Shown here piece by piece: positions 3,946 through 25,890 of a stretch of 64,000 nucleotides of DNA. The position numbers were made by a program, and so were the translations under genes. Position 1 is the stretch's first letter. The number at the start of each line of letters is the position of its first letter. This stretch comes from Hyphomonas chukchiensis (GTDB lineage: Bacteria; Pseudomonadota; Alphaproteobacteria; Caulobacterales; Hyphomonadaceae): assembly GCF_000682695.1 (NCBI RefSeq), contig NZ_AWFG01000063.1, forward strand, positions 1 through 64,000, in the 5' to 3' direction. The notes under the pieces were generated by a model that saw only the letters and a program-made list of their open reading frames with translations, searched no databases and was not told the origin of the DNA.

Positions 3946-7131
<3,186 letters not shown>

Positions 7132-8385
7132 CTAGTGATCGTGGCTGGCGGCAGACTTGTCGATGTCCGCCTTGATGAGGAAGGAATTTTCCGTGACATA
7201 GACCTCGCCGGACCGAAGGCCGCCGAGCACCTCAACGTATTCGCCATCCCGCCGCCCCAGCTCGAGCATTCTGACCTCGTACGTTTCGTCGACCTTGGCG
7301 TAGACAACCGTAAAGTCCCGGAAACTTTGCAGGCCGGTTTCTCTCACAGCGAGCGGGACGTCGGTTTCGGCCGTTATGACCTCCGCCATGAGACGCATCC
7401 CGGGTTGAAGGCCGGATCCGGCGGGAATTTTCGCAACAGCGACACGCGTTTGCGAATTCACCCCGGCCATTGGAAGGAAGCGTGAGATCGTCGTGTCGAC
7501 GTTCAACTCGCCGCCAGCAACGCCGAGACGGACATCCTGTCCGGTCTTCACGCGTGAAACGTCTCGGGGAAAGACGTGCAGATAGGCCTCCATTTGGCTG
7601 AAGTCTGCAATCACGAACAATGCTTCAGTGCCAGCAACATCACCGAGATTGGTGTGGCGTTCGAGAATTGTGCCAGAACGTGGCGCGGTGACGGTATATT
7701 CTTGCAGACTGCTCGAGGATTCAATCCGCGCAATCGTCTGTCCGCGCTGGACGGTATCTCCGACATTCGCGCTGACGGCCCGCACGGGACCCGGATATGT
7801 CGCCCTGACTTCGGAGGTCGCCGACGGCGCAAGCGTCACCTCTCCGGACAATGTCAGGGCGTCTCGGATGGTCGCAGGTCCAGCCGCCGCAACTTCCACG
7901 CCCGCCTCGATCGAGACAGTGTCGGCAATCCTGGTGCGACCCTCGAAGGATTCAAAACGCCAGCTATGCGTTGCGTTCGCAATTCGCGCTTCCACCTCTA
8001 CGTCGAAGGAATGCGGCTCGGTTACGACGCCGTCGCCCATCAGATAGTCCTGACGTGGCGTGAAGCTGAACGTGTCTGTCATCCCGCCCAGGCGGTGGAG
8101 GCGAATCGTCAAATCCACCTTTGAAGGATCGAGCGGCTGGCCGTCCAGGAACGGGTAGATGCGATACTGTGGAGGGACACCTGTTTCAAAAATCGTTACT
8201 TCGAGTCCGTATTGACCATCCTCAAGCAGTCGTCCGCCATGCGGGCCGCGGGTGTAACCATCTTCGGCGGCTTCGGCATTGTTTCCATGGCTGGACAATG
8301 GTGCGTTCACGTTTGAGGGGTCACCGCAGGCGACCAGGGTGGCTGCCGCTATGCCGACGTAGACAAATTGCAATTGATATTTCAT
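7132..8385 (-). CDS. czcB: CzcB-type periplasmic adaptor (membrane-fusion protein)
   Basis: 417 residues. A lipoprotein signal (ATLVAC, Cys20) is followed by a CzcB-specific N-terminal region (YTRGPHGGRLLEDGQYGLE). Then come barrel-sandwich/lipoyl halves around residues 175-260 and a C-terminal beta-barrel domain, ending in the His-containing tail KSAASHDH. It bridges the CzcA pump and the CzcC channel. The ATG overlaps the czcC stop by four bases (ATGA) and has GAGGAG upstream. Confidence 0.9.
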   Translation of the reverse strand: MKYQLQFVYVGIAAATLVACGDPSNVNAPLSSHGNNAEAAEDGYTRGPHGGRLLEDGQYGLEVTIFETGVPPQYRIYPFLDGQPLDPSKVDLTIRLHRLGGMTDTFSFTPRQDYLMGDGVVTEPHSFDVEVEARIANATHSWRFESFEGRTRIADTVSIEAGVEVAAAGPATIRDALTLSGEVTLAPSATSEVRATYPGPVRAVSANVGDTVQRGQTIARIESSSSLQEYTVTAPRSGTILERHTNLGDVAGTEALFVIADFSQMEAYLHVFPRDVSRVKTGQDVRLGVAGGELNVDTTISRFLPMAGVNSQTRVAVAKIPAGSGLQPGMRLMAEVITAETDVPLAVRETGLQSFRDFTVVYAKVDETYEVRMLELGRRDGEYVEVLGGLRSGEVYVTENSFLIKADIDKSAASHDH

Positions 8386-9665
8386 TCTTGTATCTCCTCG
8401 CGGACGCCAGGTGTGTCGTTGACTGACGTCAGACGGGCCAATGCTGTTTCGCTCAAAATATAGGTTCGCAGGTGAGAGAGGCGTTCCTCGCGCAGCGCCG
8501 TCAGTGTGCGTTGCGCATCGATGATGTCGAGATAGGACAGCGCGCCGCGCGCATATCCTTCGGTCGCAAGATCCAGCGCGCGCCTGGCACCAGGCAGAAG
8601 CATCGCGTCGATCGTATCAATTTCAGTGAGCGCGCTGGCAGCAGAGCGCTGGTACTGCACGGCTCGACGTAACAATTGTTGTCGAAGGGCTTGGCTTTCT
8701 ATGTCGATCCGACGCTGCTCGGCGCGGGCCTGGGCGACGCTTGCAGCACTCCGTACATGTGCGCCGAGGGGTATCGAGGCGCCGCCGATAACCGCGATGT
8801 CATCCTCGATACCGTATTTCCTCACGCCCACGCTCCAGGTCACATCCGATTTGGCCTGGGTGCGCTCAAGTTCAATTCGGGAGATTGCCTCCATACGCCT
8901 GGCTTCAAGGCGAATGATTTCCGGTGACTGCAAGGACCCTGGATCTACACTGCGGAGGGATGTGCGGGCTTCCAGAAAGTCGGGGTCAGTCAGAAATTCA
9001 CCTTGCGCTCCCCAATAGGCCCCGAGCGCCGCAAGGAAATTGTCCGCCTGTATTGCGTAGCGTCTCGCATCCGCTTCCGCCTGCATTCTGTCAGACGCAG
9101 CGCGCGCACCGGAGAGGAGCGGGTCCCTGGCGGCATCAACCCGCTTCTTGACGGCGACTTCGCGATCGAGCGAGATTTTCACACGCTCGCAGGCGAGCGC
9201 AACCCGCTGCTGGGCGACCGCTGCTTCCACATAGAGTATCTGAACTTCTTCAGCGACGCTGTATCGGGCTGCCGCGAGAGACGCTTTGGCAACGCCCACG
9301 CCGCGCTTGGCGAGCATTTGGCGCGCTTCGCGCTTGCCGCCGCGTTCCCAGACGCGGGAAAACCGTCCCGTCACCTGAAGGCTGTCAATGTCTCCCGCTA
9401 TTCCGATCCCGGGAAAGTCCTCAATATCGAGCGCGACTGTGTCCGCCGGACGCAGCGCAGCAATCGCTGTTGCAGTATGCGCGGTGGCGATTTCGGATTT
9501 AGCGGCATCGGACCTGAGGTCAACCGCCAAGGCCAGTTGGGTGGCTTCGGGCAGTGTCAGCGTCTGACGATCAGACGTTGCTGCGCCGCACGGATTGGAT
9601 TGAGCCTGCGCGTGGGGCGCAGACCAGGCCATCGCTAACGCGAGGCCGGCATATTTGAGTGACAT
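8382..9665 (-). CDS. czcC: CzcC-type outer-membrane efflux channel (TolC family)
   Basis: 427 residues from the ATG at 9665. That start is chosen because it has AGGAGC 11 bases upstream and opens a clean signal peptide (MSLKYAGLALAMAWSAPHAQA). A start at 9731 would add 22 residues that look non-coding. The body is the repeated long-helix pattern of the outer-membrane efflux protein family (for example TLPEATQLALAVDLRSDAA early on and GARRALDLATEGYARGALSY late). It forms the exit duct of the CzcCBA complex. Confidence 0.88.
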   Translation of the reverse strand: MSLKYAGLALAMAWSAPHAQAQSNPCGAATSDRQTLTLPEATQLALAVDLRSDAAKSEIATAHTATAIAALRPADTVALDIEDFPGIGIAGDIDSLQVTGRFSRVWERGGKREARQMLAKRGVGVAKASLAAARYSVAEEVQILYVEAAVAQQRVALACERVKISLDREVAVKKRVDAARDPLLSGARAASDRMQAEADARRYAIQADNFLAALGAYWGAQGEFLTDPDFLEARTSLRSVDPGSLQSPEIIRLEARRMEAISRIELERTQAKSDVTWSVGVRKYGIEDDIAVIGGASIPLGAHVRSAASVAQARAEQRRIDIESQALRQQLLRRAVQYQRSAASALTEIDTIDAMLLPGARRALDLATEGYARGALSYLDIIDAQRTLTALREERLSHLRTYILSETALARLTSVNDTPGVREEIQE

Positions 9666-9732
9666 ATAAGTACAAGCTCCTGACAAAGAACAACAAGCCG
9701 GCCTGCTCGGAAGCAGCCAGCGACGTTCCATG

Positions 9733-10811: not shown

Positions 10812-13577
10812 ATGTTCAATCCGTCACTATTCAAAACGCGGCTGTTCAGCGCTGCAGCTTCAACCATCATCCTGTCAGCCGGCATGGGCGGTGTTAATGC
10901 CGAAACGCCAGCGCCGGGCGGTGAGGTCGCGTTCAACATCGATGCACCCATGCTCGGCGACGCGCTGCGCGCGTTCGGCGCCCAGTCGGGCACGCCCATC
11001 CTGTTTTCCGAATCGCTTGTGGTCGGGCGCGCGGCGCCGGGACTGAACGGGACCTTCGCGCCGGCCGACGCGCTGGACCGCCTCCTTCAGGGGAGTGGGC
11101 TCGAAGCCGTGAAAGGGCAGGGCCAGGCGGTTATCATCCGGAAACGAACAGACGCGCCTGAGCCGGTCGTTCCGCCTGCACGTCCGCCGCGGGAGGAAGC
11201 GCCCGCCGAGACCCTGCCTGATTCATCCCGCGCCAAGGCTGACCCCGGCACACTGAGGATCGATACAGTCACTGTGACGGGCACCAGCCTGAGGGGCATT
11301 GCGCCGGAAAGCTCGCCGCTGCAGATCTACAGCCGGGAGGATATTCTCGGGTCGGGCGTGACGACAACAGAGCAATTCATCCGCACCCTGCCGCAGAATT
11401 TCGGCGGTGGGTCGACCGAATTCACCTCGCAGGGCCTGCCGACGGACGGCAATTCCCAGCGCAATTCTACCTATGGCTCCGGCGCCAACCTTCGGGGACT
11501 TGGCTCAGGCGCGACCCTGACCCTGCTGAATGGCAACCGGGTCGCACCGACCTCCACCATCGGCGATTTCGTCGACCTGTCGATGATCCCCGTGTCGGCG
11601 CTCGAACGGATCGATGTCCTCAGCGACGGCGCATCATCGATCTACGGTGGGGACGCTGTCGCCGGTGTCATCAACCTCGTCTTGCGCGACGATTTCGACG
11701 GAGCGGAGACAGGACTGCGATATGGTGCGGTGACGGATGGCGACATGGAGGAGGTCCGGTTCAGCCAGACGCTTGGCAAGAACTGGGCGGGTGGCAACAT
11801 AATCGGGACCTACGAATATATGGACCGTGACGCCCTCGGTCTGTCGGACCGTCCGGATATTGCCGCGCCGACATTGCTGAACGGCGGTCCCATCAATGTC
11901 ATTGATGCCTTCGACCTCCTTCCCCAGCAGACCCGCCACAGCCTGGTCCTGTCAGGACGTCAGGCCCTGGGCGACCGACTGGAGATCGCATCGACGGCGC
12001 TCTATTCCGACCGCAAGGTCGAAAGTTCCTCAGTCGGTATTGCCAATACGACCTCTGTTGCGAAAAGCTGGATTGAATCGGAAAGCCTCTCGGCGACGTT
12101 TTCTGCCGACTATATGCTCCGGCCTGACTGGAGCCTGACACTGGACGGGACATATAGCCGGATCCGGAATGACAATGTCCAGCAGATCATTCTTCCCGCC
12201 GTTGCTACGCCCTCCGAGGCAAAGACGGAGTCTTCCCTCTGGTCGGTTGGCCTTCTCGCGAGGGGCGACCTGTTCGCACTGCCTGGCGGAACCATTCATG
12301 CCGCACTGGGCGGACAATTCCGCCGGGAGGACTTCGCGCTTCGCCAGGTCGGCATGTCGCCCCTGCGCGATGGCACGCGCGACATCTCGGCCGTGTTTGC
12401 CGAACTGCTCATCCCGCTTGTCGGGACGGAGAACCGGATTCCCGGAATTGACCGGCTGGAGCTGAACCTGTCTGGCCGGATAGATGATTATTCCGACTTC
12501 GGATCGACGGCCAACCCGAAGGCGGGCCTTCTCTGGGTCCCCGTCGACAGGCTCAAGCTCCGAGGGTCCTACAGTACGTCCTTTGCGCCTCCGACACTCG
12601 GGCAATCAGGTGCGAACGACCGGGCCGTGGGGGTTCTGCCCTATGACTTTATCCGCAACATACTCGCCATTCCGCTCCCCGATCCGTCACTGGCGGGCGT
12701 CAACTACATGATCACGATCGGCACGGCGCCTGATCTGGAGCCGGAAACGTCAACGACCTATACGGCCGGATTTGACTATGAGCTGATGCGCGGTCGCCAG
12801 TCGCTGACGCTGAGTGGCAGTTATTATGACATCCGTTTTGAAGACCGGCTCGGTGTGACGCCTGTCCCGGGAAATCTCAACGCGAATTATGCGCCGGGAT
12901 TCGCCTTCGCCGATCCAGGTCTGTTCCCCGAAGGAACGGTTATCTTCTTCCCGAGCGAGGCTCAAATTGCGGCCGTGATTGACTCCCTCAGCCGTCCGGT
13001 AATCTTCGCGGGCGGTGCGACGGCGTTGGAAAATATCGGCTTCATCAACAATGTATCCCTGACCCGTAATCTGGCCTCGACAGAGACAAGCGGACTCGAC
13101 CTGCAAGTGTCTTACGAGACGGACACGGATGCCGGCCACCTGTCTGCCTCGCTCAATGGCAACTATATCCTCGATTTCGTGCAGCGCGCGTCCGATACGA
13201 CGCCTGCTGTGGAAACCCTCAACACGCTCTATTATCCGGTCGACCTTCAGATGCGGGGACAGGTGGCCCTTGCGCGCGGCAATCTCACCAGTTCGCTCTT
13301 CCTCAACCATGTCGACAGCTATGCGACCGACAAGACCGCTGCGGCGAGCCGGATCGATTCCTGGACGACTGTCGACCTGTCATTGTCATGGGCCTTCGAA
13401 CCGTCAACGCCGGGCTGGCTCAGCGGCAGCGCGCTCAGCCTGTCGGTCACGAACCTGTTCGACAAGATGCCGCCCCGGACGCCGCCCCTGACAGGCTTTA
13501 CCATTACCGGGTTCGACCCCGCCAATGCCTCGCCGCTCGGGCGGTTTGTCGCGCTCGAACTGCGCAAGACCTTCTAG
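10812..13577 (+). CDS. TonB-dependent receptor with N-terminal STN domain, lasso-peptide locus
   Basis: 921 residues. Signal peptide about 1-34. An STN (secretin/TonB short N-terminal) domain covers about 40-105 (NIDAPMLGDALRAFGAQSG, LNGTFAPADALDRLLQGSG). A linker rich in Pro follows, then the plug at about 150-290 (LRGLGSGATLTLLNGNRV, DGASSIYGGDAVAGVINL), then the 22-strand barrel ending in ELRKTF with the usual terminal Phe. Receptors of this type accompany lasso-peptide isopeptidases in Caulobacterales and sphingomonads and are thought to bring the lasso peptide back in. STN domains normally signal to a FecR/FecI pair, but no fecIR genes are seen nearby. The isopeptidase ATG follows the stop codon with no gap. 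Confidence 0.93.
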   Translation: MFNPSLFKTRLFSAAASTIILSAGMGGVNAETPAPGGEVAFNIDAPMLGDALRAFGAQSGTPILFSESLVVGRAAPGLNGTFAPADALDRLLQGSGLEAVKGQGQAVIIRKRTDAPEPVVPPARPPREEAPAETLPDSSRAKADPGTLRIDTVTVTGTSLRGIAPESSPLQIYSREDILGSGVTTTEQFIRTLPQNFGGGSTEFTSQGLPTDGNSQRNSTYGSGANLRGLGSGATLTLLNGNRVAPTSTIGDFVDLSMIPVSALERIDVLSDGASSIYGGDAVAGVINLVLRDDFDGAETGLRYGAVTDGDMEEVRFSQTLGKNWAGGNIIGTYEYMDRDALGLSDRPDIAAPTLLNGGPINVIDAFDLLPQQTRHSLVLSGRQALGDRLEIASTALYSDRKVESSSVGIANTTSVAKSWIESESLSATFSADYMLRPDWSLTLDGTYSRIRNDNVQQIILPAVATPSEAKTESSLWSVGLLARGDLFALPGGTIHAALGGQFRREDFALRQVGMSPLRDGTRDISAVFAELLIPLVGTENRIPGIDRLELNLSGRIDDYSDFGSTANPKAGLLWVPVDRLKLRGSYSTSFAPPTLGQSGANDRAVGVLPYDFIRNILAIPLPDPSLAGVNYMITIGTAPDLEPETSTTYTAGFDYELMRGRQSLTLSGSYYDIRFEDRLGVTPVPGNLNANYAPGFAFADPGLFPEGTVIFFPSEAQIAAVIDSLSRPVIFAGGATALENIGFINNVSLTRNLASTETSGLDLQVSYETDTDAGHLSASLNGNYILDFVQRASDTTPAVETLNTLYYPVDLQMRGQVALARGNLTSSLFLNHVDSYATDKTAAASRIDSWTTVDLSLSWAFEPSTPGWLSGSALSLSVTNLFDKMPPRTPPLTGFTITGFDPANASPLGRFVALELRKTF

Positions 13578-16268
13578 ATGCGCGTCCCGGTCCTGTCGCG
13601 ATATCACCGGCCGCCGCGCCCCAGAATTCGGCAGCAACGCGGCGGCCGGCTCCGGCCCTGGAGTGTTCTCATCGCCGCGATCGCCGTGAGCCTGATCGGA
13701 GGGGCAGGGGCTTTGCGCGCAGATCCCGCGCCTGTCCAGCGCCACAATCTCAGGCTGGAGGATGTCCTCGCTACGGAAGGTATCGGCGCAGCGCAATTTT
13801 CCCCGGATGGGCGCTGGCTGGCCTATAACCTGGTGCCGCCTTACGCCCGGCTTTCGGATTATTCCTACTGGATGCGGGCCTATGGCCTCAGCGGACACCA
13901 GCTCTGGGTCAAGGCGATGGACAATGGCGCCGCGCCCTCCCTGCAGCTAGGTCTCGATCCGGGCGCCACCAGTTTCCTGATGGGCTTCTCGCCCGGCAGC
14001 ACGCATGTTGTCGTCCTTGAGCACAAAAGCGGCCGCTTCCGGCTGGTGGCGTGCCGCACCGGCGAGGCCAGCTGCGTCCGGTTCGATCCCATGCCGGACA
14101 TCCGGGACCGGTATGTCAGGGCAGAGGACTGGAATGCGCATCTGGTCTGGACATCGGAGGACACGTTCGTGATGCCGGTTCGCGATGACGTGCTTCCGGG
14201 TTCGGAAATGCGAAATCGTGCCGCAACCGGTACCTTTCTCTGGCAGGCGTGGAACAGGGCATGGTCGGGCCAGGGGGCGACTGCGTCCGAAGCTATCAGC
14301 ACGGGCCGCGACCGTTCGGCAGACTGGGCCGCAGGCGACCTGGTCGAATTCAGCATACGGACCGGCCGGGTGGCGATCCTCGCGGCGGGACGCTACACAG
14401 GCGTGCGGGCCTCGTCGGACGGCCGGTTCCTGCTGGCGGCGCGCGTCGCCGAGCGCGAGCGGCCCCCGGCGGACGCGCGCCCGATTGCAAGCGAAACCCA
14501 CCCGATTTTCGACAGGCACTACGCGCTGAGCCTGATCGACCGGACGCGCGGTGCGGTAAGGCAGGCGGGGCAGCCATTCAACGTGGATCCGGGCTCCCTG
14601 ACCTGGTTGGAAACGCCGGAACGCTTTGCCGTTTTTGGCTGGGACCAGGACGAAAAGCCGGAGGACGGGCGGTTTTACATTGTCGATACCGCAACACTCA
14701 ATGCGCACCCGCTCAGCCATGCCGGTCTGGCCCTTACCAACAGAAGGCAGGATCCGGATTTCAAATGGTGGCCGGGTCCGGCCCGTGCCGCCCTCCTGGA
14801 ATCGGGCCTCGCTGTTCTTGCCAGGCCGGTCGGGGACGTGCGGCAGGACTGGTACCTGTTGCGGGGCGGTGCCGCACCGCTCAACCTGTCGGCTGGGCTG
14901 GATGAGCCGTCCGGTGATCTTCTCACTGTCGACCGCAGCGGCATCACGCTCATGGCGGACGGCGCAATGTACCGGCTGACCGCCGATGGTGATCCTGCGC
15001 GTCTGACGCCGGAGGGGACCCGGTTTTCGGGTCCGGTTGCCGATGCGGCCAATCCGGCCGATGCCCGGTTCGTGGATTTCACGCCCACAGCGCCGCGGAT
15101 CGGTGAGGACAACAGCGAGGACCTGATACTGGCGCAAAGCGAATCTCGCACCGGAGATACCGGAATCTGGTTTGGCGATGTCCGGCCTGGCTCGGCCTCC
15201 TGGCGCCACTTTGCCCTGAACATGCCAGCCGCTCATGTCCTCGCAGCGTCCGGGCGGGCGCAAGCGGCCGTCATCACGGTAAAGGAGGGGCGCGCGACGC
15301 GTCTCCTGCTGATCGGCAAAGACTCAGTCTCCACCGAACTGGCCCGGATCAACGCACACCTGAATGCGGTGCATTCGCCGGGGACGCGGACAATTTCCTA
15401 CGCGCTTCACGATCCCCAGGGCGCGGCGCCGCCCCGGCCCGTGACAGCCTGCCTGCTCCTGCCGCCCGGTTATGATCCCGCCAAACGCTATCCTGTCCTG
15501 ATGGAAGTCTATCCGATCGGGATTGGCGGGAACTGTCGCACGTTCACGGATTATCCAGCACCGGGCGCCGTCGTTCCGGAGCTCTGGACCTCGCGCGGGT
15601 TCATCTATGTCCTGCCCGCAATTCCCCTCGATCTTGCAAGGACACCGGACGATCCGCTCGGCGGGCTGGGCGACCTGCTTGGCCAGACCGTAGACGCGCT
15701 TGCAGATACGGGTCCTGCCGATCCGGACCGGATCGTCCTTTTCGGCATGAGTCAGGGCGGCATCGCGTCGCTGGTTGGCGCCACCCAGTCGGACCGGTTT
15801 GCAGCCGTCATATCGATCAATGGCTGGGCAGACTATTTCAGCCACTATTTCGGGGCGCGGGGATTGATGCGCTATTTTCACCTGGATCAGAATGGGGGCG
15901 ACAACCGCTGGCGCTACGAATGTGCCCGCGAGGGGCCCAGTCATGATTGTCCGTTCGGATTCGGGGTCGCGGCACTCGCCGATCCGGAGCGCTATGCGCG
16001 CACGAGTCCCGTCGCAAAAGCCGACAGCATCACTGCCCCTGTTCTACTCGTCCATTCGGATTTCGATTATTTCGGCATGGCCCAGTATGATGAAATGTTT
16101 GGCGCGCTCTATCGGGCGGGCAAGGACGCACGCTACGTACGCTACTGGGGCGAGGGCCACGGGCCTTCCTCGCCGGCCAATATCAGGGACCTGTGGATGC
16201 GGATCGATGCGTTCCTCGCCGAAAGTGGCGTGGCCGTCTCGCAGGCGGAACCGGACCGGTCGCGCTGA
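13578..16268 (+). CDS. Lasso-peptide isopeptidase (Atxe2 type, S9 prolyl-oligopeptidase fold)
   Basis: 896 residues. A long basic leader with a signal-type hydrophobic stretch (SVLIAAIAVSLIGGAGAL, residues 29-46) points to export. A beta-propeller-like region starts near residue 60 (FSPDGRWLAYNL). The C-terminal alpha/beta hydrolase domain (from about 610) carries GMSQGG with Ser725, an Asp at 828 or 830 (VHSDFDYFG) and His861 (GEGHG), a full serine-peptidase triad. Atxe2-type enzymes open the isopeptide ring of their own lasso peptide. The gene directly abuts the TonB receptor gene and converges with the cyclase, leaving only 27 bases between stops. Placement next to a lasso cluster makes this preferable to a general dipeptidyl peptidase. 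Confidence 0.87.
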   Translation: MRVPVLSRYHRPPRPRIRQQRGGRLRPWSVLIAAIAVSLIGGAGALRADPAPVQRHNLRLEDVLATEGIGAAQFSPDGRWLAYNLVPPYARLSDYSYWMRAYGLSGHQLWVKAMDNGAAPSLQLGLDPGATSFLMGFSPGSTHVVVLEHKSGRFRLVACRTGEASCVRFDPMPDIRDRYVRAEDWNAHLVWTSEDTFVMPVRDDVLPGSEMRNRAATGTFLWQAWNRAWSGQGATASEAISTGRDRSADWAAGDLVEFSIRTGRVAILAAGRYTGVRASSDGRFLLAARVAERERPPADARPIASETHPIFDRHYALSLIDRTRGAVRQAGQPFNVDPGSLTWLETPERFAVFGWDQDEKPEDGRFYIVDTATLNAHPLSHAGLALTNRRQDPDFKWWPGPARAALLESGLAVLARPVGDVRQDWYLLRGGAAPLNLSAGLDEPSGDLLTVDRSGITLMADGAMYRLTADGDPARLTPEGTRFSGPVADAANPADARFVDFTPTAPRIGEDNSEDLILAQSESRTGDTGIWFGDVRPGSASWRHFALNMPAAHVLAASGRAQAAVITVKEGRATRLLLIGKDSVSTELARINAHLNAVHSPGTRTISYALHDPQGAAPPRPVTACLLLPPGYDPAKRYPVLMEVYPIGIGGNCRTFTDYPAPGAVVPELWTSRGFIYVLPAIPLDLARTPDDPLGGLGDLLGQTVDALADTGPADPDRIVLFGMSQGGIASLVGATQSDRFAAVISINGWADYFSHYFGARGLMRYFHLDQNGGDNRWRYECAREGPSHDCPFGFGVAALADPERYARTSPVAKADSITAPVLLVHSDFDYFGMAQYDEMFGALYRAGKDARYVRYWGEGHGPSSPANIRDLWMRIDAFLAESGVAVSQAEPDRSR

Positions 16269-16295
16269 CCCGCCTCAGGCCTGGCGACAGGGACT

Positions 16296-18116
16296 TCACG
16301 GAGCGGCGTTCCGGCGCGTCCTGCGGCCGAGCCATGCCTCAATGACATAGCAAACGAGGATCATGCGGCCGAATGTGTCGACCCCATAGGAACCCGGCCG
16401 CAAGGCCGCCTCCACGTCAGCGCGGTCAATCAGTCCGTTCGCGACAAGGGCGCCATTCATCAGCGTGTCTGCGAGCAAATCCCGGTTCGCCTTCAACTGT
16501 TCAGTATAGAAGCGGGAGGCATCGCCCTTCGATCGGCGCAGGCGTATCTGGTCAGGAAGGCGTCCGGCAAAGGCCTGCCGGACCAGACCCCGCCCGCGAC
16601 CTCCATGGCAGAGGAGATAGGCGGGCAGTTGCAGGCAGAGTTCGACCAGCGGCTGGGATATCAGGGGGTGGACGGTCTCGTCCGTGCCGGGCAGGGCGAG
16701 GCTCTCGCGTATCTGGATCATGTGCGCGAGGCCGGAGACCTGGGCGAACTTGGCCGGGGGCAAGCCTTCAGGAACGCATGCCCAGACAGGCAGGAGATCG
16801 GAAGCATCGAGCCGCTCGTGGGTCAGCCGGTTGAGCCCTGTCTGGCGCTCCCTGATGCTGCGGATCGCGGCGGTCTCACGCGGTCCTGCAACCAGGTGTG
16901 AAAGGCTTTCTGCGAGCACGTGCCAGACCGATTCGCCAGACAGGCGGGCTGCGGCGAGGAGTTCATGCGCCGCCCGCCGGCCAGGCCCGTGGCGGCGCAG
17001 ATAGTCGGCGAAGATGAGCGGGTCGCGGGTTTCGAGAAACAGGTGGTCGCCCCCTTGTCCCGTGAAGACAGTGCGGCCTGCCAGGCCAAGGGCCTGTCGA
17101 CGTTCGGCATCCGCGCGTCGCCCGAGGAATTCCCGGAAGGGCCTAGCTGAGAGCGGGTGACAGTCGGGGGGCGGTAGCGGGTCGGCAGGATCAATCAGGC
17201 ATTCCGCGAGCTCAATCCCGAGATCGCGGGCGACCGCTCGTGCCTGTGCGGCTTCCGGTGGATCGCCGCCTCGCAGGATGAAATGCACGGCGCGCATGTC
17301 CAGCGCGCCAGGTTCCTGCATCAGGCAGGCGGCGACGATTGCGGAGTCGAGACCGCCCGACAGGTTTAGCGCGAGATGCGGACACGCCTGGCCCCAGGTC
17401 CGAACGACACAGGACGTCGTCTCGCGCAGGCATGCTGCGGCCTCCTCCGGCGCGGGCTCCAGTGCGTTCCGTGCGACCTGTCTCGGATCCCAGAGCGCTT
17501 CTTTCCGCACCCGGCCGCCAGATACATGTAACCGGCATCCGCCGGCCAGCTCACGGACACCCCTGAGGCCGGATTGGCCCGGCTGGATCTTGTCATAGGC
17601 CAGAAGGTTCGCGATGAAATCCAGGTCCGGGTCGAAGCGGATCCAGTCAGGCAGCGGGCAGACTTCGAGATGGGAGAAGACGAGGGTGACGCCGCGTGTC
17701 TGGCAGTAGAAACACGGAATGGAAGAGGTCGGCTCGGTCAGCACGACCGTGCCGTCACTGCAGGCCAGGAAGGCCAGGTATGCGCCCCAATAGTCCGTCA
17801 TCAGGCTCGCGCCGCGGGAGCTGGCAATCCGCCTGCCTGCCTCCTGGTCAAGGATGGCCAGGGGCGGGACGGGGATGCGCGCGCAGGCGCGGCGAAACAG
17901 TCTTCCGAACACGGCGCCAGAGACCTCGCCGGCTGGAATGGACAGGACATGACGCCCGGTTGTACCCGAGGTAAGATCGTGGAGCACGCATCCGGCGCTG
18001 ACAGCGTGGCGGGCGGCTTCCGGCGCGCCGCGACGAACGCAACGGTCAATGTCGCTGGCGGCGGCGGCTGCGTCCGGATCGGCTGGATCCCAGATGAGGG
18101 CAAGACAGGACGGCAA
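16296..18116 (-). CDS. Lasso-peptide cyclase (asparagine-synthetase-like C protein)
   Basis: 606 residues. The N-terminal half is a glutamine-hydrolase-like fold that lacks the catalytic Cys2 (it starts MPSCL), as usual for lasso cyclases. The synthetase half has the ATP-pyrophosphatase loop SGGLDS at 253-258 and the later GQGGDHLF motif. It adenylates the ring acid of the precursor and closes the isopeptide bond. The best start is a TTG at 18116, because no in-frame ATG is near; GAGAGG lies about 10 bases upstream. The start is 13 bases after the B-gene stop, so A, B and C form one operon. Confidence 0.92.
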   Translation of the reverse strand: MPSCLALIWDPADPDAAAAASDIDRCVRRGAPEAARHAVSAGCVLHDLTSGTTGRHVLSIPAGEVSGAVFGRLFRRACARIPVPPLAILDQEAGRRIASSRGASLMTDYWGAYLAFLACSDGTVVLTEPTSSIPCFYCQTRGVTLVFSHLEVCPLPDWIRFDPDLDFIANLLAYDKIQPGQSGLRGVRELAGGCRLHVSGGRVRKEALWDPRQVARNALEPAPEEAAACLRETTSCVVRTWGQACPHLALNLSGGLDSAIVAACLMQEPGALDMRAVHFILRGGDPPEAAQARAVARDLGIELAECLIDPADPLPPPDCHPLSARPFREFLGRRADAERRQALGLAGRTVFTGQGGDHLFLETRDPLIFADYLRRHGPGRRAAHELLAAARLSGESVWHVLAESLSHLVAGPRETAAIRSIRERQTGLNRLTHERLDASDLLPVWACVPEGLPPAKFAQVSGLAHMIQIRESLALPGTDETVHPLISQPLVELCLQLPAYLLCHGGRGRGLVRQAFAGRLPDQIRLRRSKGDASRFYTEQLKANRDLLADTLMNGALVANGLIDRADVEAALRPGSYGVDTFGRMILVCYVIEAWLGRRTRRNAAP

Positions 18117-18131
18117 GGGCTTGCAAACCTC

Positions 18132-18830
18132 TCAGATCACCATGAGCGTCTGATAGTCGGCGCAGGTATCCCGCTCCTCGTTGAGGACGATACCATTGCG
18201 CGACACCCAGCAATGGGCCGCGAAGGGTGACAGGCGAACGCCGAAAATCCAGTCGGCATCGACCCCGTAATGCGCCAGGAACTGCAGGAGGAGCATGCTC
18301 CGAAGGAAGCAGGCATCGTGTATGCTGACGCAATAGGGTGTGAGGGCATGAAAGCTGCGGGCGAGATCGATTGCGCGCGCGTCAGAGCCGGACGCTTTCG
18401 CGCGAGCCGTCTGTTTCCACTGTTGGGCTGCTGTCAGCGTGGCCGCGAGGCGCCCGCCACGGACCCGTCGCGCAAGACCCCAGGCTGCCCGAAGCGCCAC
18501 GAGGGTCGCGAGATGCCTGAGGGAAGGGGCATGGCCCTGGCCGATGTCAAGATCGTAGATAGAGGCGTGCACGCCACAGGGTGGGGTCAGATGGATGGGC
18601 TGTCCCAGATCCTTGCTCCGGGTGAGGACATGTTTGTCACAGAGCCGCTCGGCAAACTGGCCGGCGAGGCCGGACATTCCCGCCTTTGGCGCCGCGGCGA
18701 TATCCGAAAACCACGCGGCTTGTGAGCCTGAGAGGTAAAGATAGCGATCAAGCGCGGTATCGAGGAGGACATAGTCGCCGCCGACAGCGCAGGCGTGAAT
18801 GCCGTTGCGAAACAGATAGTCGTCCTGCAT
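18132..18830 (-). CDS. Lasso-peptide leader peptidase (B protein: RRE plus transglutaminase-like domain)
   Basis: 232 residues from the ATG at 18830 (GGTGGAGA about 8 bases upstream). Residues 1-80 form a PqqD-like precursor-recognition domain (GDYVLLDTALDRYLYLSG). Residues 130-232 form the transglutaminase-like protease with Cys174 (HDACFLRSMLLLQFL) and His206 (SPFAAHCWV). The third catalytic position, usually Asp in a VLND-type motif, appears to be Glu218 (VLNEERD). The protein removes the leader so that Gly1 can attack. The single fused B protein is the proteobacterial arrangement. Confidence 0.9.
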   Translation of the reverse strand: MQDDYLFRNGIHACAVGGDYVLLDTALDRYLYLSGSQAAWFSDIAAAPKAGMSGLAGQFAERLCDKHVLTRSKDLGQPIHLTPPCGVHASIYDLDIGQGHAPSLRHLATLVALRAAWGLARRVRGGRLAATLTAAQQWKQTARAKASGSDARAIDLARSFHALTPYCVSIHDACFLRSMLLLQFLAHYGVDADWIFGVRLSPFAAHCWVSRNGIVLNEERDTCADYQTLMVI

Positions 18831-18892
18831 GGGCGGGTCTCCACCAGAGGGTTCCTGCTGCCCGGCGAGGCGTCCGATTTTGCGCCGCGCCG

Positions 18893-18917
18893 AAAAAGGG
18901 GGACCGAAGTCCCCCTT
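18893..18917 (-). terminator. Hairpin terminator or attenuator right after the lasso precursor
   Basis: Read on the minus strand, the RNA folds as AAGGGGGAC-TTCG-GTCCCCCTT and runs into a tract of five T residues. This is a perfect 9-bp stem closed by a stable TTCG tetraloop. It lies 5 bases beyond the precursor stop and about 60 bases before the B start. It should end most transcripts after the precursor gene and let some through to B and C. That gives far more precursor than enzyme. Confidence 0.9.
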
Positions 18918-18921
18918 CCTG

Positions 18922-19068
18922 TCAGCCGATCGGGATGAGCCGCGAGTTCGGCCCCACGGCGAATTCGGCGCCCTGGTTGAAACCGCCCCGGGTCTCTTCC
19001 GACACCGATCCCAATTCGATCGGCTCGAATGCATCATCGTCAAGATGGTCGTCTGTCTGCGTATTCAT
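18922..19068 (-). CDS. Lasso-peptide precursor (A peptide)
   Basis: 48 residues, from the ATG at 19068 with AAGGAG 8 bases upstream. The leader is 27 residues, acidic, and ends ELGSVSEETR with the hallmark Thr at -2. The predicted 21-residue core starts GGFNQGAEF, continues AVGPN and ends SRLIPIG. Gly1 and Glu8 are the only residues that fit a 7-9 residue ring, so an 8-residue macrolactam is expected. Astexin-type precursors also have Thr-Arg before the first Gly and a Gly-x-x-x-Gly start region. By hand calculation the cyclised core would weigh about 2082.06 Da (monoisotopic). The Arg16-Leu17-Ile18 region is the likeliest place for plug residues. Confidence 0.92.
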   Translation of the reverse strand: MNTQTDDHLDDDAFEPIELGSVSEETRGGFNQGAEFAVGPNSRLIPIG

Positions 19069-19076
19069 GGCATTGA

Positions 19077-19149
19077 CTCCTTTTGGTTTGAGGGTGTGTC
19101 GCTGGCCGGACGACACGTAGAAAATGCATCCTATCTAAAGTAGAGTCAA
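19077..19149 (-). promoter_or_regulatory. Probable promoter and ribosome-binding site of the lasso operon
   Basis: On the minus strand a TTGACT box (19149-19144) is followed after 17 bases by CATTTT, a weak -10. The strong Shine-Dalgarno CAAAAGGAG (around 19077-19085) precedes the precursor ATG. An AT-rich stretch (19161-19190) lies just upstream and could act as an UP-type element or a regulator site. No operator was identified. Confidence 0.5.
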
Positions 19150-19270: not shown

Positions 19271-20659
19271 TCATGCGTCCTCCGCGTCATTGTCCGTGGA
19301 AGGGAAAGCCTCGTACTGGCCGGGAAGGTCAAGGTGGACAGGTGATTGTCGCAAGAGGGCGCGGGCCTTTGCCGGGTCACCCGTCAGCCTGCATGTGTGT
19401 GCGCGTGACAGCGCATAATAGGCCCGTACATAAGGATCGACCTCGAAGAGCGCCGGCGAACTGAGAACCGAGGCAAACCCCGTATCCGGTGTCCGCCAGC
19501 GGGGTCCATATGTCTCGGTGAGGTAGCGCTCCGGATCGTCCGGGATGGGCCATTGCCGTCCCTGAAAATCAGCGGCCCTGACATTGAAGGATGTGAACCG
19601 CCAGGCCACGTCTCCGGCAAGCCGGCCGAGCCCGCACTGAAGGCCGCCATCGCACGGCTCATAGAGGAATATGTCGACGGCAATGGCCTGGAACGTCAGG
19701 GCGAAATAGCGGTCGCCCGGACGGGCCCGTCGATCAAGCAGGAGGCCTGAGTGTTCGCGGATGACGCGGGCGAGGTCCGGCCCGCCACTCTCGTCGGCAA
19801 GGACGCCGACATCGATATCCCTGTCGTGGACCAGCGGCGCGCCGCTGCGGTGGACTCCCAGCAATGTTCCGGCCGCCAGAAAATATCGGAGGCCTGCGGC
19901 GTCTAGAATCTCCGCGATCCCGCAAAGGGCGCGCGCCGCCGCGTCGGGGCTGAACGGCGGCGGCAATGGGCTGCCGGAAAAGTCATGCTGCCCGAGAGAC
20001 AGTGCAGACCGCTTGTGCTTGAGCGCCGCGTGATAGTTACCGGTCTCGTAGAAGGCACGGGCCAGCTGGTCATGAGCTGCCCACGCGTCCTCGAACTTCG
20101 CGGCATTGCGGCGAATGAAAGCGACCGCTTCGTGGCCGCGCCGGGCGTCGAGCAGGGCCTTTGCGCAGTCTGCAAAATTACGCGGACGGTTTTGCCCGCT
20201 GCCGCATAGGCGCAGGCGCGCATCAGCCGCGCACTGGATTGCGCCAATCCGCTCATCCTCATCCGGTGTGATGTCGGCAAGGGATCCCCATGACTGCCAG
20301 GCATCGGGATGGCAGTCGACGCTCTGGCGAAAGGCGGCGAGGGCCGCTGGCCGGTCCATGAGGGCATGCAGGGCCAGACCGCGTCCGTGGAGGGCGCGCC
20401 CATCGACCGGATTGAGGGAAAGAAGCTGATCGAACCACGCCAAAGCCAGGTCTGGCGCGCCGGTGCGCAGGAAGGCCGCGCCGAGCGATTGCTGGACAGG
20501 GGCGTGCCCGGGGCGAAGGCGGTTCGCCGCCAGTAAAGGGGGCAGGGCGGCCTCAGATCGCCCGGCCGCAAGGCATTTCTGACCCGCCCGCAGGTAATAC
20601 TGCCAGGACCCGGGCGGGTATTGATCGGCCGGCAAGGATTGGGAGATGCCGGACTTCAT
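19271..20659 (-). CDS. TPR protein with a LicD/nucleotidyltransferase-like domain, upstream of the lasso operon
   Basis: 462 residues from the ATG at 20659 (GGAAG 7 bases upstream; an ATG at 20710 lacks a site). The first ~220 residues are tetratricopeptide-like repeats (APDLALAWFDQLLSLNPVDG; NYHAALKHKRSALSLG). From about residue 240 comes a domain with GTLLGVHRSG and HDRDIDVG, the metal-binding Asp pattern of LicD-like nucleotidyl/phosphotransferases. LicD proteins add phosphocholine or similar groups to glycans. Its position, in line with and 200 bases upstream of the precursor, raises the possibility that it modifies the lasso peptide or its carrier. It could also be an unrelated cell-surface enzyme. 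Confidence 0.75.
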   Translation of the reverse strand: MKSGISQSLPADQYPPGSWQYYLRAGQKCLAAGRSEAALPPLLAANRLRPGHAPVQQSLGAAFLRTGAPDLALAWFDQLLSLNPVDGRALHGRGLALHALMDRPAALAAFRQSVDCHPDAWQSWGSLADITPDEDERIGAIQCAADARLRLCGSGQNRPRNFADCAKALLDARRGHEAVAFIRRNAAKFEDAWAAHDQLARAFYETGNYHAALKHKRSALSLGQHDFSGSPLPPPFSPDAAARALCGIAEILDAAGLRYFLAAGTLLGVHRSGAPLVHDRDIDVGVLADESGGPDLARVIREHSGLLLDRRARPGDRYFALTFQAIAVDIFLYEPCDGGLQCGLGRLAGDVAWRFTSFNVRAADFQGRQWPIPDDPERYLTETYGPRWRTPDTGFASVLSSPALFEVDPYVRAYYALSRAHTCRLTGDPAKARALLRQSPVHLDLPGQYEAFPSTDNDAEDA

Positions 20660-21095
20660 GGGAGGTCTTCCGGGCCAAGCCATGAATGGGAGGCGCGCAT
20701 CCTGCGGCATGGGAATGCCGATTCAGCTGCCTCGCGTCGCACCTCGTACCGCCAGCATTCACGGGACAATTCCGGATCATGGAGTCTTGCAGGGAACACT
20801 CTGTCCTCTCGTGCCGAATGGGGGCGCAATCGTATTCGGATGCGGAGGCGTGACGCGATCGGACCAAGCGCCGAGCTCCGGGAATCCTGCGTTCAGGCTC
20901 TCGCGTCACCCCGCGTCCATTCCCGTGGACGCGCAAAAAACATGTACTTTTGAATACACACACGTTAAACCATAAGTAGGAATAAAATGCAACATTAAAG
21001 AGGATTCTGAAGGCAGTGCGGGCAAGCCATACCCATGGCCCGGGACGTGCCGGAAGGGTCAGTCAGAAGCGGTTTCCCGAACAGGAAAGATGTCC
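20660..21095. other. Divergent intergenic region between the TPR/LicD gene and luxR
   Basis: About 430 bases with no convincing gene. The stretch 20936-21000 is notably AT-rich in a GC-rich context and probably holds the luxR promoter. The other end must hold the promoter of the minus-strand gene. I found no clear inverted repeat resembling the one between luxR and luxI. Confidence 0.5.
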
Positions 21096-21824
21096 ATGCA
21101 TGATTATAACGGGTCTGCCGTGCTCCATGCCATCCGCCTGATTTCGGCGACCGCGACGAGTGCCGAGACGATCGAAGCCCTTGCCGTCTTCATTGAAGCC
21201 TATGGCTTCGAGAAAATATTCCTCGGCCAGCTCGTCAATCCGGTGAATGTTCCGCTGAAGGACATACTTTACCTCTCCAACTGGCCTGAGGAACTCAAGG
21301 CGGCCAGGCGTACCAGGGCTGCCATCCTTCACGATCCGATTGCCTTCTGCGCCGTGAGATCGAAACGGCCTTTCAGCTGGGCCGAAGCGCGCGCCCATGC
21401 CACGCGGGCTGGCCGGCGCACCGTCGACATGGTGCATGATTTCGGCATCACCCATGGCATGATGTTTCCCATGCATGCCCTCGAGAGCGTATCGGGTGGT
21501 GTCTCGCTGGGCGGCGGCGTCAAGCCTGACCTGTCACCGACCGAGATCGCGGAACTCGAAATCGTCTGCCAGGTCGCCTACTATCATCTCGAAACGATGC
21601 TGGGACCGTTTCCCTATCAGAAGGTTGCCGAACTCACGCCTCGCGAGACCGAATGCGTCCAGTTCGCCGCCGCCGGCAAGTCCAATTGGGAGATTGCCCA
21701 TATCCTGGGCATCCAGGAGGACACGGTCAAAAAGACATTGCGCCGGGCAAGGGACAAGCTTGATGCCGTGAACCGGGCGCATCTGGTCGCAAGCGCCATC
21801 GCCCGCCACCAGATTCTGCCCTGA
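21096..21824 (+). CDS. LuxR-family quorum-sensing regulator
   Basis: 242 residues from the ATG at 21096, preferred over the ATG two codons earlier because AGGA lies 9 bases from it and only 3 from the other. The N-terminal autoinducer-binding domain keeps Trp in SNWPEEL, Asp-Pro in LHDPIAF and Trp in FSWAEA. The usual Tyr between the first Trp and DP is not seen. The C-terminal LuxR helix-turn-helix runs LTPRETECVQFAAAGKSN to DTVKKTLRRARDKL. The adjacent AHL synthase makes it the likely cognate receptor. Confidence 0.9.
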   Translation: MHDYNGSAVLHAIRLISATATSAETIEALAVFIEAYGFEKIFLGQLVNPVNVPLKDILYLSNWPEELKAARRTRAAILHDPIAFCAVRSKRPFSWAEARAHATRAGRRTVDMVHDFGITHGMMFPMHALESVSGGVSLGGGVKPDLSPTEIAELEIVCQVAYYHLETMLGPFPYQKVAELTPRETECVQFAAAGKSNWEIAHILGIQEDTVKKTLRRARDKLDAVNRAHLVASAIARHQILP

Positions 21825-21899: not shown

Positions 21900-22550
21900 A
21901 TGTTCAAGATCATCACACCGGACAACTGCCATCAGCATTCAGACCTCATCGATGAGATGCACAAGATGCGCTACCGCATCGTGGTCGGCGAATGGGGGTG
22001 GGACATACCGGGCATCGAACCGGGCTATGACAAGGACCAGTTCGATACCGCCGACACGGTCTATGTCATCGCGTTGACCGCCGCAGGCGAGCTTGTCGGC
22101 ACGTCGCGTCTCAACCCGACCGTCGGGCCGCATATGCTGAGCGAACTCTTTGCCGACTATTGCGATCTCCAGCCCTATCCGGTCGGCCGCGATGTCTGGG
22201 AGTGTTCCCGGTTCGTGACGGACCGGTCCCTGGCAACTGATCCGGTCGACGCTTTCCGCGTCCGGTGCCGGGTCGGTCTTGGCCTCACAGCCTACTGCCT
22301 CGACAATCACATATCCCGGCTCAGCTGGCTGACGCACCAGAAATTCTTCAACCTGGTCCAGCGGGTCTGGCAAACCGAGCCCCTCGGTCTTCCAAAGCGG
22401 GACGGTGACAATTGGGCCTGGATACCTGCCGTGTCGACCATCGACGAGGCGACGTTCGACCGCCAGCTTGACCGCTATCGCAATGCCGAAGCGATCGTCG
22501 CGGCAAATGGTGCGGCACGGTCAGAGGCCCGGCGGGGCAAGGTCGCATGA
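21900..22550 (+). CDS. N-acyl-homoserine lactone synthase (LuxI family)
   Basis: 216 residues, normal length. Family residues are visible: MRYRIVVGEWGW (conserved Arg and Trp), Asp pair in YDKDQFDTAD, Arg in GTSRLNPT, and WECSRFVTDRS with the catalytic Glu and the Arg. It makes an acyl-homoserine lactone from SAM and an acyl carrier; the acyl chain cannot be predicted. A strong AAGGAGGAG precedes the ATG, and the stop overlaps the phyH start (ATGA), so the two are co-translated. Confidence 0.95.
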   Translation: MFKIITPDNCHQHSDLIDEMHKMRYRIVVGEWGWDIPGIEPGYDKDQFDTADTVYVIALTAAGELVGTSRLNPTVGPHMLSELFADYCDLQPYPVGRDVWECSRFVTDRSLATDPVDAFRVRCRVGLGLTAYCLDNHISRLSWLTHQKFFNLVQRVWQTEPLGLPKRDGDNWAWIPAVSTIDEATFDRQLDRYRNAEAIVAANGAARSEARRGKVA

Positions 22551-23563
22551 GCCGCAGCGTGCGCGACAGGATAAGCGACGCCGAGCAGTCGGCTTTCGAC
22601 CGGGATGGTGTCATTTGCCTGAGGAATGTCCTGACCATGGACGAGGTGGATCACCTGCGACACGCCGTTGCAGGACAGATGAGCCGGCTCGGCCACTCGC
22701 CGACAGGCTATGATTTCGAAGCGCTTGCAGGCCAGGTCTGGGACCAGGGCCGGAGCGTCGATACCGGCGAGGCGGACCGTTTCGACATGCAGGCCATGAA
22801 GGCGCTCATCAGGTCCGACGCCGCGGCCCGACCACTGCTGGAGGCGGACCCGTCAGCCGAGACCGGCCTCTTCTTCTATGATGTTGCAGCCTGGAGGCAT
22901 GATCGCGGGGTCCGGAAGGTCGCCTTCGACTCGGCCCTCCCGCAAATTGCCGCCAGCCTGCTCGATGCGCGCTACCTGAATTTCTGGGAAGACACGACAT
23001 TTGTGAAGGCGCCCCATACGCGCCAGAAGACAGCCTTTCACCAGGATCTCGCCTATTTCCAGATCGAGGGCGACCAATGCGTGATCGTCTGGATCCCGCT
23101 TGACGCTGCAAGCCTGGACAATGGCGTCACCCAATATGTCAGAGGCTCGCACAAGTGGGGCCAGGTCTTCGCACCGAACGTGTTCGTGTCCCAGACACCT
23201 TTCCAATCATCTCCTGAAGGTCGCTGTCCCGACATAGAATTAGCGCCGGAGGACTATGACATCGTCTCCGTCGCGGTGGAGCCCGGGGATGTCATCATCC
23301 ATCATGTGATGACGGTCCACGGCGCCGGCGGCAACAGGTCCGATACCTGGCGCCGTGCGGTATCGTTTCGCTATTGCGGAGACCAGGTCCGGTACCTGGA
23401 CCGGAAAGGCGCGATCGCCCAGGTCGGGGTCACGCATGATCTCAGCGATGGCGACCGGCTCTTTTCGGCTGACTATCCCATTGTCTGGCCCAAACCCTGG
23501 CCCGGATTCTGTCTCGCCGAGGCGTTTGACGTCCTGGACGGCGACCGGACCGGCAAGGCGTGA
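22547..23563 (+). CDS. Phytanoyl-CoA dioxygenase (PhyH) family protein
   Basis: 338 residues. A non-haem Fe(II)/2-oxoglutarate oxygenase with the iron triad His165-x-Asp167 (AFHQDLAYF) and His258 (TVHGAGGNRS), and a nearby Arg for 2-oxoglutarate. It overlaps luxI by four bases. LuxI-PhyH pairs occur in other alphaproteobacteria. Hydroxylation of the acyl chain of the signal or its precursor is a plausible role but not shown. A terminator follows the gene. Confidence 0.88.
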   Translation: MSRSVRDRISDAEQSAFDRDGVICLRNVLTMDEVDHLRHAVAGQMSRLGHSPTGYDFEALAGQVWDQGRSVDTGEADRFDMQAMKALIRSDAAARPLLEADPSAETGLFFYDVAAWRHDRGVRKVAFDSALPQIAASLLDARYLNFWEDTTFVKAPHTRQKTAFHQDLAYFQIEGDQCVIVWIPLDAASLDNGVTQYVRGSHKWGQVFAPNVFVSQTPFQSSPEGRCPDIELAPEDYDIVSVAVEPGDVIIHHVMTVHGAGGNRSDTWRRAVSFRYCGDQVRYLDRKGAIAQVGVTHDLSDGDRLFSADYPIVWPKPWPGFCLAEAFDVLDGDRTGKA

Positions 23564-24893: not shown

Positions 24894-25031
24894 TGCCTTC
24901 AGTTCTGCCAGGCCTTTGGCTTGGACGTGACCGGGGCAGAGATTGAATCACTTGAAGGTCAGACGGTCTTGAGTGTTCGTTGCTTCGACCGACTATGGGA
25001 CCGGGAGGGCCTCTTCCACCGGCAGCCTAGC
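24894..25031 (+). pseudogene. Fragment resembling HipA toxin
   Basis: The plus-strand peptide FCQAFGLDVTGAEIESLEGQ followed by TVLSVRCFDRLWDREGLF resembles the HipA kinase segment normally reading like LPVAEAEI...VLVVERFDR. Only about 45 residues remain, with no start of the family and no HipB partner. It is probably a relic of a hipBA system. Confidence 0.45.
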
Positions 25032-25887
25032 TGACAATCAACGAGGTGATCGAGATATCGGCGGATACATGCGGCACAGTATTTGTCGATACGACTCGTG
25101 ACGATACCGCCTTGAGGGCTTCATACGCATCACCGGCAAACAGTGCATGGACCACGACGCAGACGGGTTTGGGAAAGCCTGTCGTTTCGAAATGGCGTGC
25201 TGCTTCAATCATGGTGCGGCCCGACGAAGCGATGTCGTCGACCAGAACAGGTTGGTAGCCGGTCCGGTTCTCGAGACCCGGTGCCGTGACTTCGACATTT
25301 CGGTCACCGTGGCGGATTTTCGAAAGCACAAGGTGAGGCGCGCCAATCCGTCCGGCAACATCGGAGACCCATTGCGCGCTTTCAGAGTCAGGCCCGATGA
25401 TGAGTGGGTTTTCGACATGTGTCGTGATCCAGTCGGCGAGCGCTGGAGCGGCGTGCACGACTTTCGTCTTGATCGAAAAAACCTCGTCCAGATCATGAAT
25501 GCGGTGCAAATGCGGGTCGACTGTCACAACGCGGTCGAACGCCCCGGACAGCAGTCTTGCAAAGTGCCGCGAGGAAACCGATTCACCATCAGAGAATCGC
25601 TTGTCCTGGCGCATGTAGGCGAGATAGGGCGCAATCAGCCCGACTGACGTTGCGCCAAGTTCGCGTGCTGTATAGGCCGCGAACAGGAGTCCCGGCAATT
25701 GTGGATCGGGGTGGGCCAGTGTGCAGACCAGTTCTACGGATTTACCCGCCATTTCCGAGGCAATGCGGACATAGGTCTCCTGATCTGGAAACCGGCGCAA
25801 TTCCAGCGCACCGAGCGCGCTGTTCGTGATCTCGGCGAGTTGCGCAGCCATCGCCTCGTTTCCGGGAAGCGGAATGTAAATCGTCAT
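25027..25887 (-). CDS. prs: Ribose-phosphate pyrophosphokinase-like enzyme
   Basis: 286 residues, shorter than house-keeping Prs (~310). PRPP synthetase features: RFPDQETYVRI, RQDKRFSDGESVSSRHFA, the metal/ATP motif DPHLHRIHDL, and the PRPP loop VLVDDIASSGRTMIEA. It converts ribose-5-phosphate plus ATP to PRPP and AMP. It is the last gene of the four-gene operon (3 bases after the phosphorylase stop) and is probably a specialised second copy serving this pathway. Confidence 0.88.
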   Translation of the reverse strand: MTIYIPLPGNEAMAAQLAEITNSALGALELRRFPDQETYVRIASEMAGKSVELVCTLAHPDPQLPGLLFAAYTARELGATSVGLIAPYLAYMRQDKRFSDGESVSSRHFARLLSGAFDRVVTVDPHLHRIHDLDEVFSIKTKVVHAAPALADWITTHVENPLIIGPDSESAQWVSDVAGRIGAPHLVLSKIRHGDRNVEVTAPGLENRTGYQPVLVDDIASSGRTMIEAARHFETTGFPKPVCVVVHALFAGDAYEALKAVSSRVVSTNTVPHVSADISITSLIVS

Positions 25888-25890
25888 GGA

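Follow-up and report, generated by a model that had tools for sequence, protein, structure and literature searches.

A duplicated lasso peptide unit of the isopeptidase kind with acyl-homoserine-lactone genes and a LicD-type enzyme in Hyphomonas chukchiensis

What lasso peptides are used for when a receptor and an isopeptidase are encoded next to them has been called enigmatic (PMC9266682, a 2022 review), and the same question is raised by a locus of Hyphomonas chukchiensis. The window analysed here, a stretch of 64,000 nucleotides (contig NZ_AWFG01000063.1, positions 1 to 64,000), carries a lasso locus of the isopeptidase kind together with genes of acyl-homoserine-lactone (AHL) signalling and an enzyme that combines TPR repeats with a LicD domain (TPR-LicD); the arrangement is duplicated in the genome, and its cores seem exchangeable. 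On balance, the evidence leans towards a nine-gene unit, one of a paralogous pair, that makes a class II lasso peptide of the isopeptidase type tailored by the LicD enzyme and tied to AHL quorum sensing. An earlier report linking lasso peptides to quorum sensing, luxI or LicD was not found in the literature searched, and quorum sensing is absent from PMC9266682 as well as from a 2026 review.

A preliminary description of the locus had placed the genes for precursor, B protein and cyclase on one strand, with a receptor and a peptidase facing them, and all five were found there, in the families claimed, by Pfam and NCBIfam models. The gene for the TonB-dependent receptor (10812–13577, forward strand; Pfam STN 41.4, Plug 50.1 and barrel 130.9 bits) is followed by that for an S9-family peptidase (13578–16268, forward; Peptidase_S9 57.6 bits) in the position of a lasso isopeptidase. 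The reverse strand encodes the C protein, an asparagine-synthetase-like macrolactam cyclase (16296–18116; Pfam Asn_synthase 86.4 bits), the B protein or leader peptidase (18132–18830; lasso_biosyn_B2 63.5 bits, cut-off 33) and a lasso precursor of 48 amino acids (18922–19068), which consists of MNTQTDDHLDDDAFEPIELGSVSEETR and GGFNQGAEFAVGPNSRLIPIG and has an AAGGAG ribosome site ahead of it. Since this gene order and homologous precursors recur in about 25 other loci, the lasso locus is not a product of chance. It had been regarded as complete, which turned out to be too narrow: four further genes and a second, paralogous unit had been missed, and the unit reaches position 23563. Upstream of the precursor, the TPR-LicD gene (19271–20710, reverse; Pfam TPR and LicD matches) is divergent from a gene for a LuxR-type regulator (21090–21824, forward; Autoind_bind 75 bits, GerE 50.7 bits), followed by genes for a LuxI-type AHL synthase (21900–22550, forward; Autoind_synth 77.9 bits) and a PhyH-family Fe(II)/2-oxoglutarate oxygenase (22547–23563, forward; PhyH 112.8 bits), the last two overlapping by 4 bases.

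The reported absence of an ABC exporter was borne out, as no ABC transporter was seen among the genes scanned at 7.1–23.6 kb, and the lasso peptide would leave the cell through an exporter other than an adjacent ABC transporter. Beside the receptor, at 7132–9731, lie genes for a HlyD/CusB-like fusion protein and an outer-membrane efflux protein, which probably form a metal efflux operon and may also serve lasso export. On the other side of the unit, consecutive genes for PRPP synthetase, a thymidine/AMP phosphorylase-like protein, a beta-CASP hydrolase and phosphoketolase (25027–31195) possibly constitute a nucleoside salvage cluster.

Thr at leader position -2, Gly1 and an Asp or Glu at core positions 7–9 mark the gene product as a lasso precursor; the preliminary description was right about this Thr and about Glu8 being the sole acid of the core GGFNQGAEFAVGPNSRLIPIG. 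With the benenodin-family model NF033522 it reached 23.1 bits, below the cut-off of 33. In homologue alignments, Cys174 and His206 of the B protein are invariant, as are S253, G254, G255, D257 and S258 of the SGGLDS motif of the cyclase, which is asparagine-synthetase-like by its Pfam score and lies below the curated cut-offs for lasso and ikarugamycin-type cyclases (NF033561, 101.9 bits, cut-off 300). By homology, the B protein would cut the shared leader after EET-R and the C protein would close Gly1 on Glu8, so that the predicted ring is G1–E8. The mass given for the unmodified lasso was reproduced on recalculation (2082.065 Da; 1042.04 for the 2+ ion). The core had also been proposed to be new; no match was found in the literature searched, but an identical core occurs in Hyphomonas oceanitis SCH89 and the peptide is therefore not unique to this genome.

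No lasso peptide system has been described with an enzyme of the TPR-LicD type. The protein of the window has 479 residues, in which TPR repeats are joined to a LicD domain (Pfam LicD, 29.1 versus 22.6 bits), and D296, D298, D300, D346, G281 and T282 are invariant in 24 homologues. The DxD metal-binding motif of LicD and FKRP (D298, D300) and the corresponding fold are both present; in an AlphaFold model with a pLDDT of 86, the best PDB folds include FKRP with Mg/CMP for the catalytic part and the TPR of O-GlcNAc transferase for the TPR part. A TPR-LicD protein was present in 20 of 105 genomes of the family, and wherever enough contig lay alongside, its gene adjoined lasso genes, with the exception of one contig-edge case. 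Units of this kind are shared by Hyphomonas, Henriciella, Marinicaulis and Glycocaulis, with Hyphomonas oceanitis, H. jannaschiana, H. atlantica, Henriciella, Marinicaulis flavus and Glycocaulis profundi as named carriers. In Marinicaulis flavus, two LicD-lasso units with different cores (L129, L130) stand in tandem. Another such unit (L062) is found on a contig whose label names a gammaproteobacterium, Luteimonas sp. XNQY3, which may reflect transfer or contamination. Some lasso-like loci (L113, L114, L116) have the B gene on the strand opposite to the cyclase and precursors on the far side of the cyclase.

A hydroxyl residue in the tail of the core is correlated with this enzyme. Each of the 27 distinct LicD-linked cores has Glu8 together with Ser or Thr at core position 14–16, usually within NSR. 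Such a hydroxyl residue at 14–16 is found in only 4 of 25 cores from loci without LicD, a list that is approximate as some of its precursors were chosen by motif from short frames. The pair Ser/Thr-Arg/Lys occurs in 24 of the 27 versus none of the 25; given the relatedness of the loci, Fisher p-values are not interpreted as probabilities. In the window, the residue is Ser15 in the NSR motif of the core tail (codon TCG, 18943–18945, reverse), the predicted modification site. Over 29 loci, the tail hydroxyl is encoded by TCN in 19, AGY in 6 and ACN in 4, and selection for the hydroxyl accounts better than common descent for this use of three codon families. TPR-LicD, if it works in the manner of FKRP and O-GlcNAc transferase, would most likely modify the Ser15 hydroxyl, to which it would add a group from a nucleotide donor, probably in phosphodiester linkage. 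If so, this would be a new tailoring chemistry for lasso peptides, and a search for the unmodified mass could give a false negative and miss the real product.

The same pattern has been weighed against an ordinary lasso peptide of the isopeptidase type, in which Ser/Thr-Arg/Lys in the tail serves as a plug or is recognised by the receptor or the peptidase, and LicD acts on another target, for instance a surface glycan or lipid. Plug residues can be Arg or Lys, and glycans are the classical targets of LicD enzymes. The cyclases of LicD-linked loci form one group (support 79 including the long branch of L120, 100 for the rest), with family-profile scores above 700 bits, whereas all others reach at most 376, the exception being L120 with about 306. 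The correlation of LicD and Ser is therefore a single evolutionary event, which is no proof of a causal link and speaks for the motif reading, as do the LicD-linked cores of L062 and L073, which keep the Ser without the basic neighbour. What this explanation leaves unaccounted for is that TPR-LicD is confined to lasso loci, that the hydroxyl survives switches between Ser and Thr and between codon families while its neighbours vary, and that the motif is absent from LicD-less loci that have receptor and peptidase. It is considered rather unlikely. The distant locus L120 is LicD-linked and has an unusually long putative core at about 5128–5352 (33 amino acids with three Cys). It was considered as an independent acquisition of LicD and rejected; its cyclase groups with the LicD-linked ones, but the branch is very long and weakly supported.

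A connection to quorum sensing was suggested by gene linkage. The whole genome has two luxI genes, both inside the two lasso units; in the genus Hyphomonas, 19 of 21 luxI genes lie inside LicD-lasso loci, and all Hyphomonas genomes with luxI also carry the lasso cyclase. Elsewhere in the order, luxR and luxI were found within a few kilobases in 6 of 17 lasso loci without LicD, all from other families (L118, L119, L121, L122, L123, L127); the lasso loci flanked by these genes differ in cyclase clade. In the three of these that were read for phyH (L119, L122, L127) it adjoins luxI each time, and a GntR-type regulator is near the precursor in the LicD-less loci read, including L119 and L127. Both Lux proteins of the window exceed the Pfam cut-offs for the autoinducer synthase and autoinducer-binding domains. 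LuxI keeps Arg24 and Trp34, whereas Phe28, described as absolutely conserved (PMC3704786), is replaced by Val in all aligned homologues; LuxR lacks two of the usual aromatics of the ligand pocket, again like all aligned homologues. Both deviations weigh against the favoured interpretation, and the AHL signal may be unusual.

From this linkage, AHL control of the lasso genes is inferred, by which LuxI and LuxR would adjust lasso production to population density. A different view is that luxR-luxI-phyH is an independent neighbour, linked by inheritance as a block, and that the lasso genes are not under AHL control. It fits with luxI-phyH being known from Novosphingobium, where the pair was reported as a separate unit in sphingomonads without lasso genes (PMC3704786), and with the precursor having its own sigma70-like promoter, a TTGACT-N17-CATTTT element immediately upstream (19121–19149, reverse) that emerged when the upstream regions of 23 loci were aligned. 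No palindrome common to the loci was seen upstream of luxR, and no lux box was recognised at the target promoter. Several LicD-lasso loci have neither luxR nor luxI, and AHL control is thus not obligatory. Mere neighbourhood is harder to reconcile with the 19 of 21 Hyphomonas luxI genes in lasso loci, with luxI being retained in both units of this genome and with its presence beside lasso loci of different cyclase clades, and this view is considered rather unlikely. Under the favoured interpretation of AHL-linked units, the linkage suggests a signalling use of the lasso peptide. As nearly every AHL synthase gene of Hyphomonas is in such a locus, the question of lasso function becomes directly testable there.

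How the product might be perceived depends on the receptor and the peptidase. The receptor carries an N-terminal STN signalling domain. Surface signalling through FecI/FecR was considered for it and discarded, as the single FecR of this genome is encoded elsewhere, on contig C74. The peptidase had been described as an AtxE2-type isopeptidase; an S9 peptidase in the same position is indeed present, but membership of the AtxE2 family was ruled out by a score of 36.5 bits with NF033523, for which the cut-off is 400. AtxE2 was matched only through a profile search (4.4e-8) and was not returned by a single-sequence PDB search with the window peptidase, and the match of the fold to SpI-IsoP (8.6e-23) ranked below other S9 enzymes. 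By comparison, a relative without LicD (L123) encodes a clear AtxE2 homologue (349 bits). The model of the window peptidase (pLDDT 74) has the S9 fold with a beta-propeller and a putative Ser725-Asp830-His861 triad, and S725, D828, D830 and H861 are invariant in 16 homologues. It is a probable isopeptidase, and its N-terminus resembles a signal peptide by eye, from which a periplasmic site would follow. Synteny and fold point to the cycle proposed in the preliminary description, in which the lasso peptide would be made, exported, bound by the STN-type TonB receptor, taken into the periplasm and opened there by the S9 peptidase. The position of the unit next to the only quorum-sensing signal genes of the cell suggests that lasso peptides of this class are used for cell-to-cell communication.

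Further insight came from the second full nine-gene unit (L003), which shares the gene order of the first, is located on contig C29 (461–13257) and has a precursor at 8715–8584 with the core GQPNGLIELFGQNSRN. Identity between the two units is uneven: 86% for LuxR, 79–82% for LuxI, 76% for PhyH and 62–63% for LicD, compared with 39–40% for the peptidase, 44% for the cyclase and 35% for the B protein. Within the receptor, the first 350 amino acids are 82% identical and the remainder 53%. The leaders of both precursors are identical in DNA save for the last (-1) codon, while the cores differ; promoter, 5' UTR and leader (window 18988–19149) are nearly identical in L003, and the similarity ends at the border of leader and core, a pattern suggestive of gene conversion or of an exchanged core. 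The peptidase, receptor barrel, cyclase and B protein of the window are closer to Henriciella than to the C29 paralogue, whereas its LicD is closer to Hyphomonas units, with which LuxR and LuxI are also shared. An exchange of specificity genes within a conserved frame would best account for this uneven identity.

Between units, the core, receptor barrel, peptidase, B and C vary, while the leader, the STN/plug half of the receptor, LicD, LuxR and LuxI form the conserved frame; this is as expected for a pherotype-like or self/non-self signal. This may be extended to a two-layer, strain-specific system, in which AHL reports density, the LicD-modified lasso is an identity tag that needs a matching receptor barrel and peptidase, and swaps of core and specificity genes create identities; this extension is speculative and considered unlikely. 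Diversification of core and specificity genes with the frame kept is also seen in toxin-immunity loci, and receptor and peptidase might instead provide uptake and self-protection against a narrow-spectrum toxin of related strains. Narrow-spectrum activity was shown for astexin-1, but all other lasso peptides of the isopeptidase type were without antimicrobial activity (PMC9266682). Together with the lack of an exporter-type immunity gene nearby, this makes an antibacterial role improbable.

Compared with known systems, the locus resembles the astexin/AtxE2, benenodin and sphingopyxin clusters in that A, B and C face a TonB receptor and an S9 peptidase without an ABC exporter, and the leader is related to theirs (LGSVSEET). 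In isopeptidase clusters, the precursor is near-constantly preceded by a gene for a GntR-type regulator, and the receptor accompanied by sigma/anti-sigma genes (PMC9266682); this GntR and FecI/FecR architecture does not apply to the window, which has TPR-LicD and luxR-luxI-phyH instead, no FecR near and a peptidase far from AtxE2. In Sphingomonas BPH, the sphingocin locus likewise has A, B and C facing an isopeptidase and a TonB receptor without an exporter, and its leader contains DLGSVTEETK; its core GPGFINNDGVGGKLPFAGLSDD, unlike that of the window, has no NSR motif, and LicD or luxI are not mentioned in the section consulted (PMC11006600). The luxR-luxI-phyH units of Novosphingobium comprise the same three genes, and lasso genes were not reported there (PMC3704786). 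Lasso peptides of the paeninodin/pseudomycoidin type (PadeK/PsmK, PsmN) share the principle of a conserved hydroxyl residue and a co-encoded transferase, PsmN being annotated as a nucleotidyltransferase. Their target is the C-terminal Ser, once a kinase has phosphorylated it (PMC9266682), whereas in the window the residue is a Ser/Thr inside the tail, no kinase gene was seen and the enzyme has the TPR-LicD architecture. Of the two parts of that enzyme, the TPR domain is like that of O-GlcNAc transferase, whose glycosyltransferase domain is absent from it, and the catalytic fold is like that of human FKRP, a LicD-fold ribitol-phosphate transferase, with about 22–24% identity over the aligned part.
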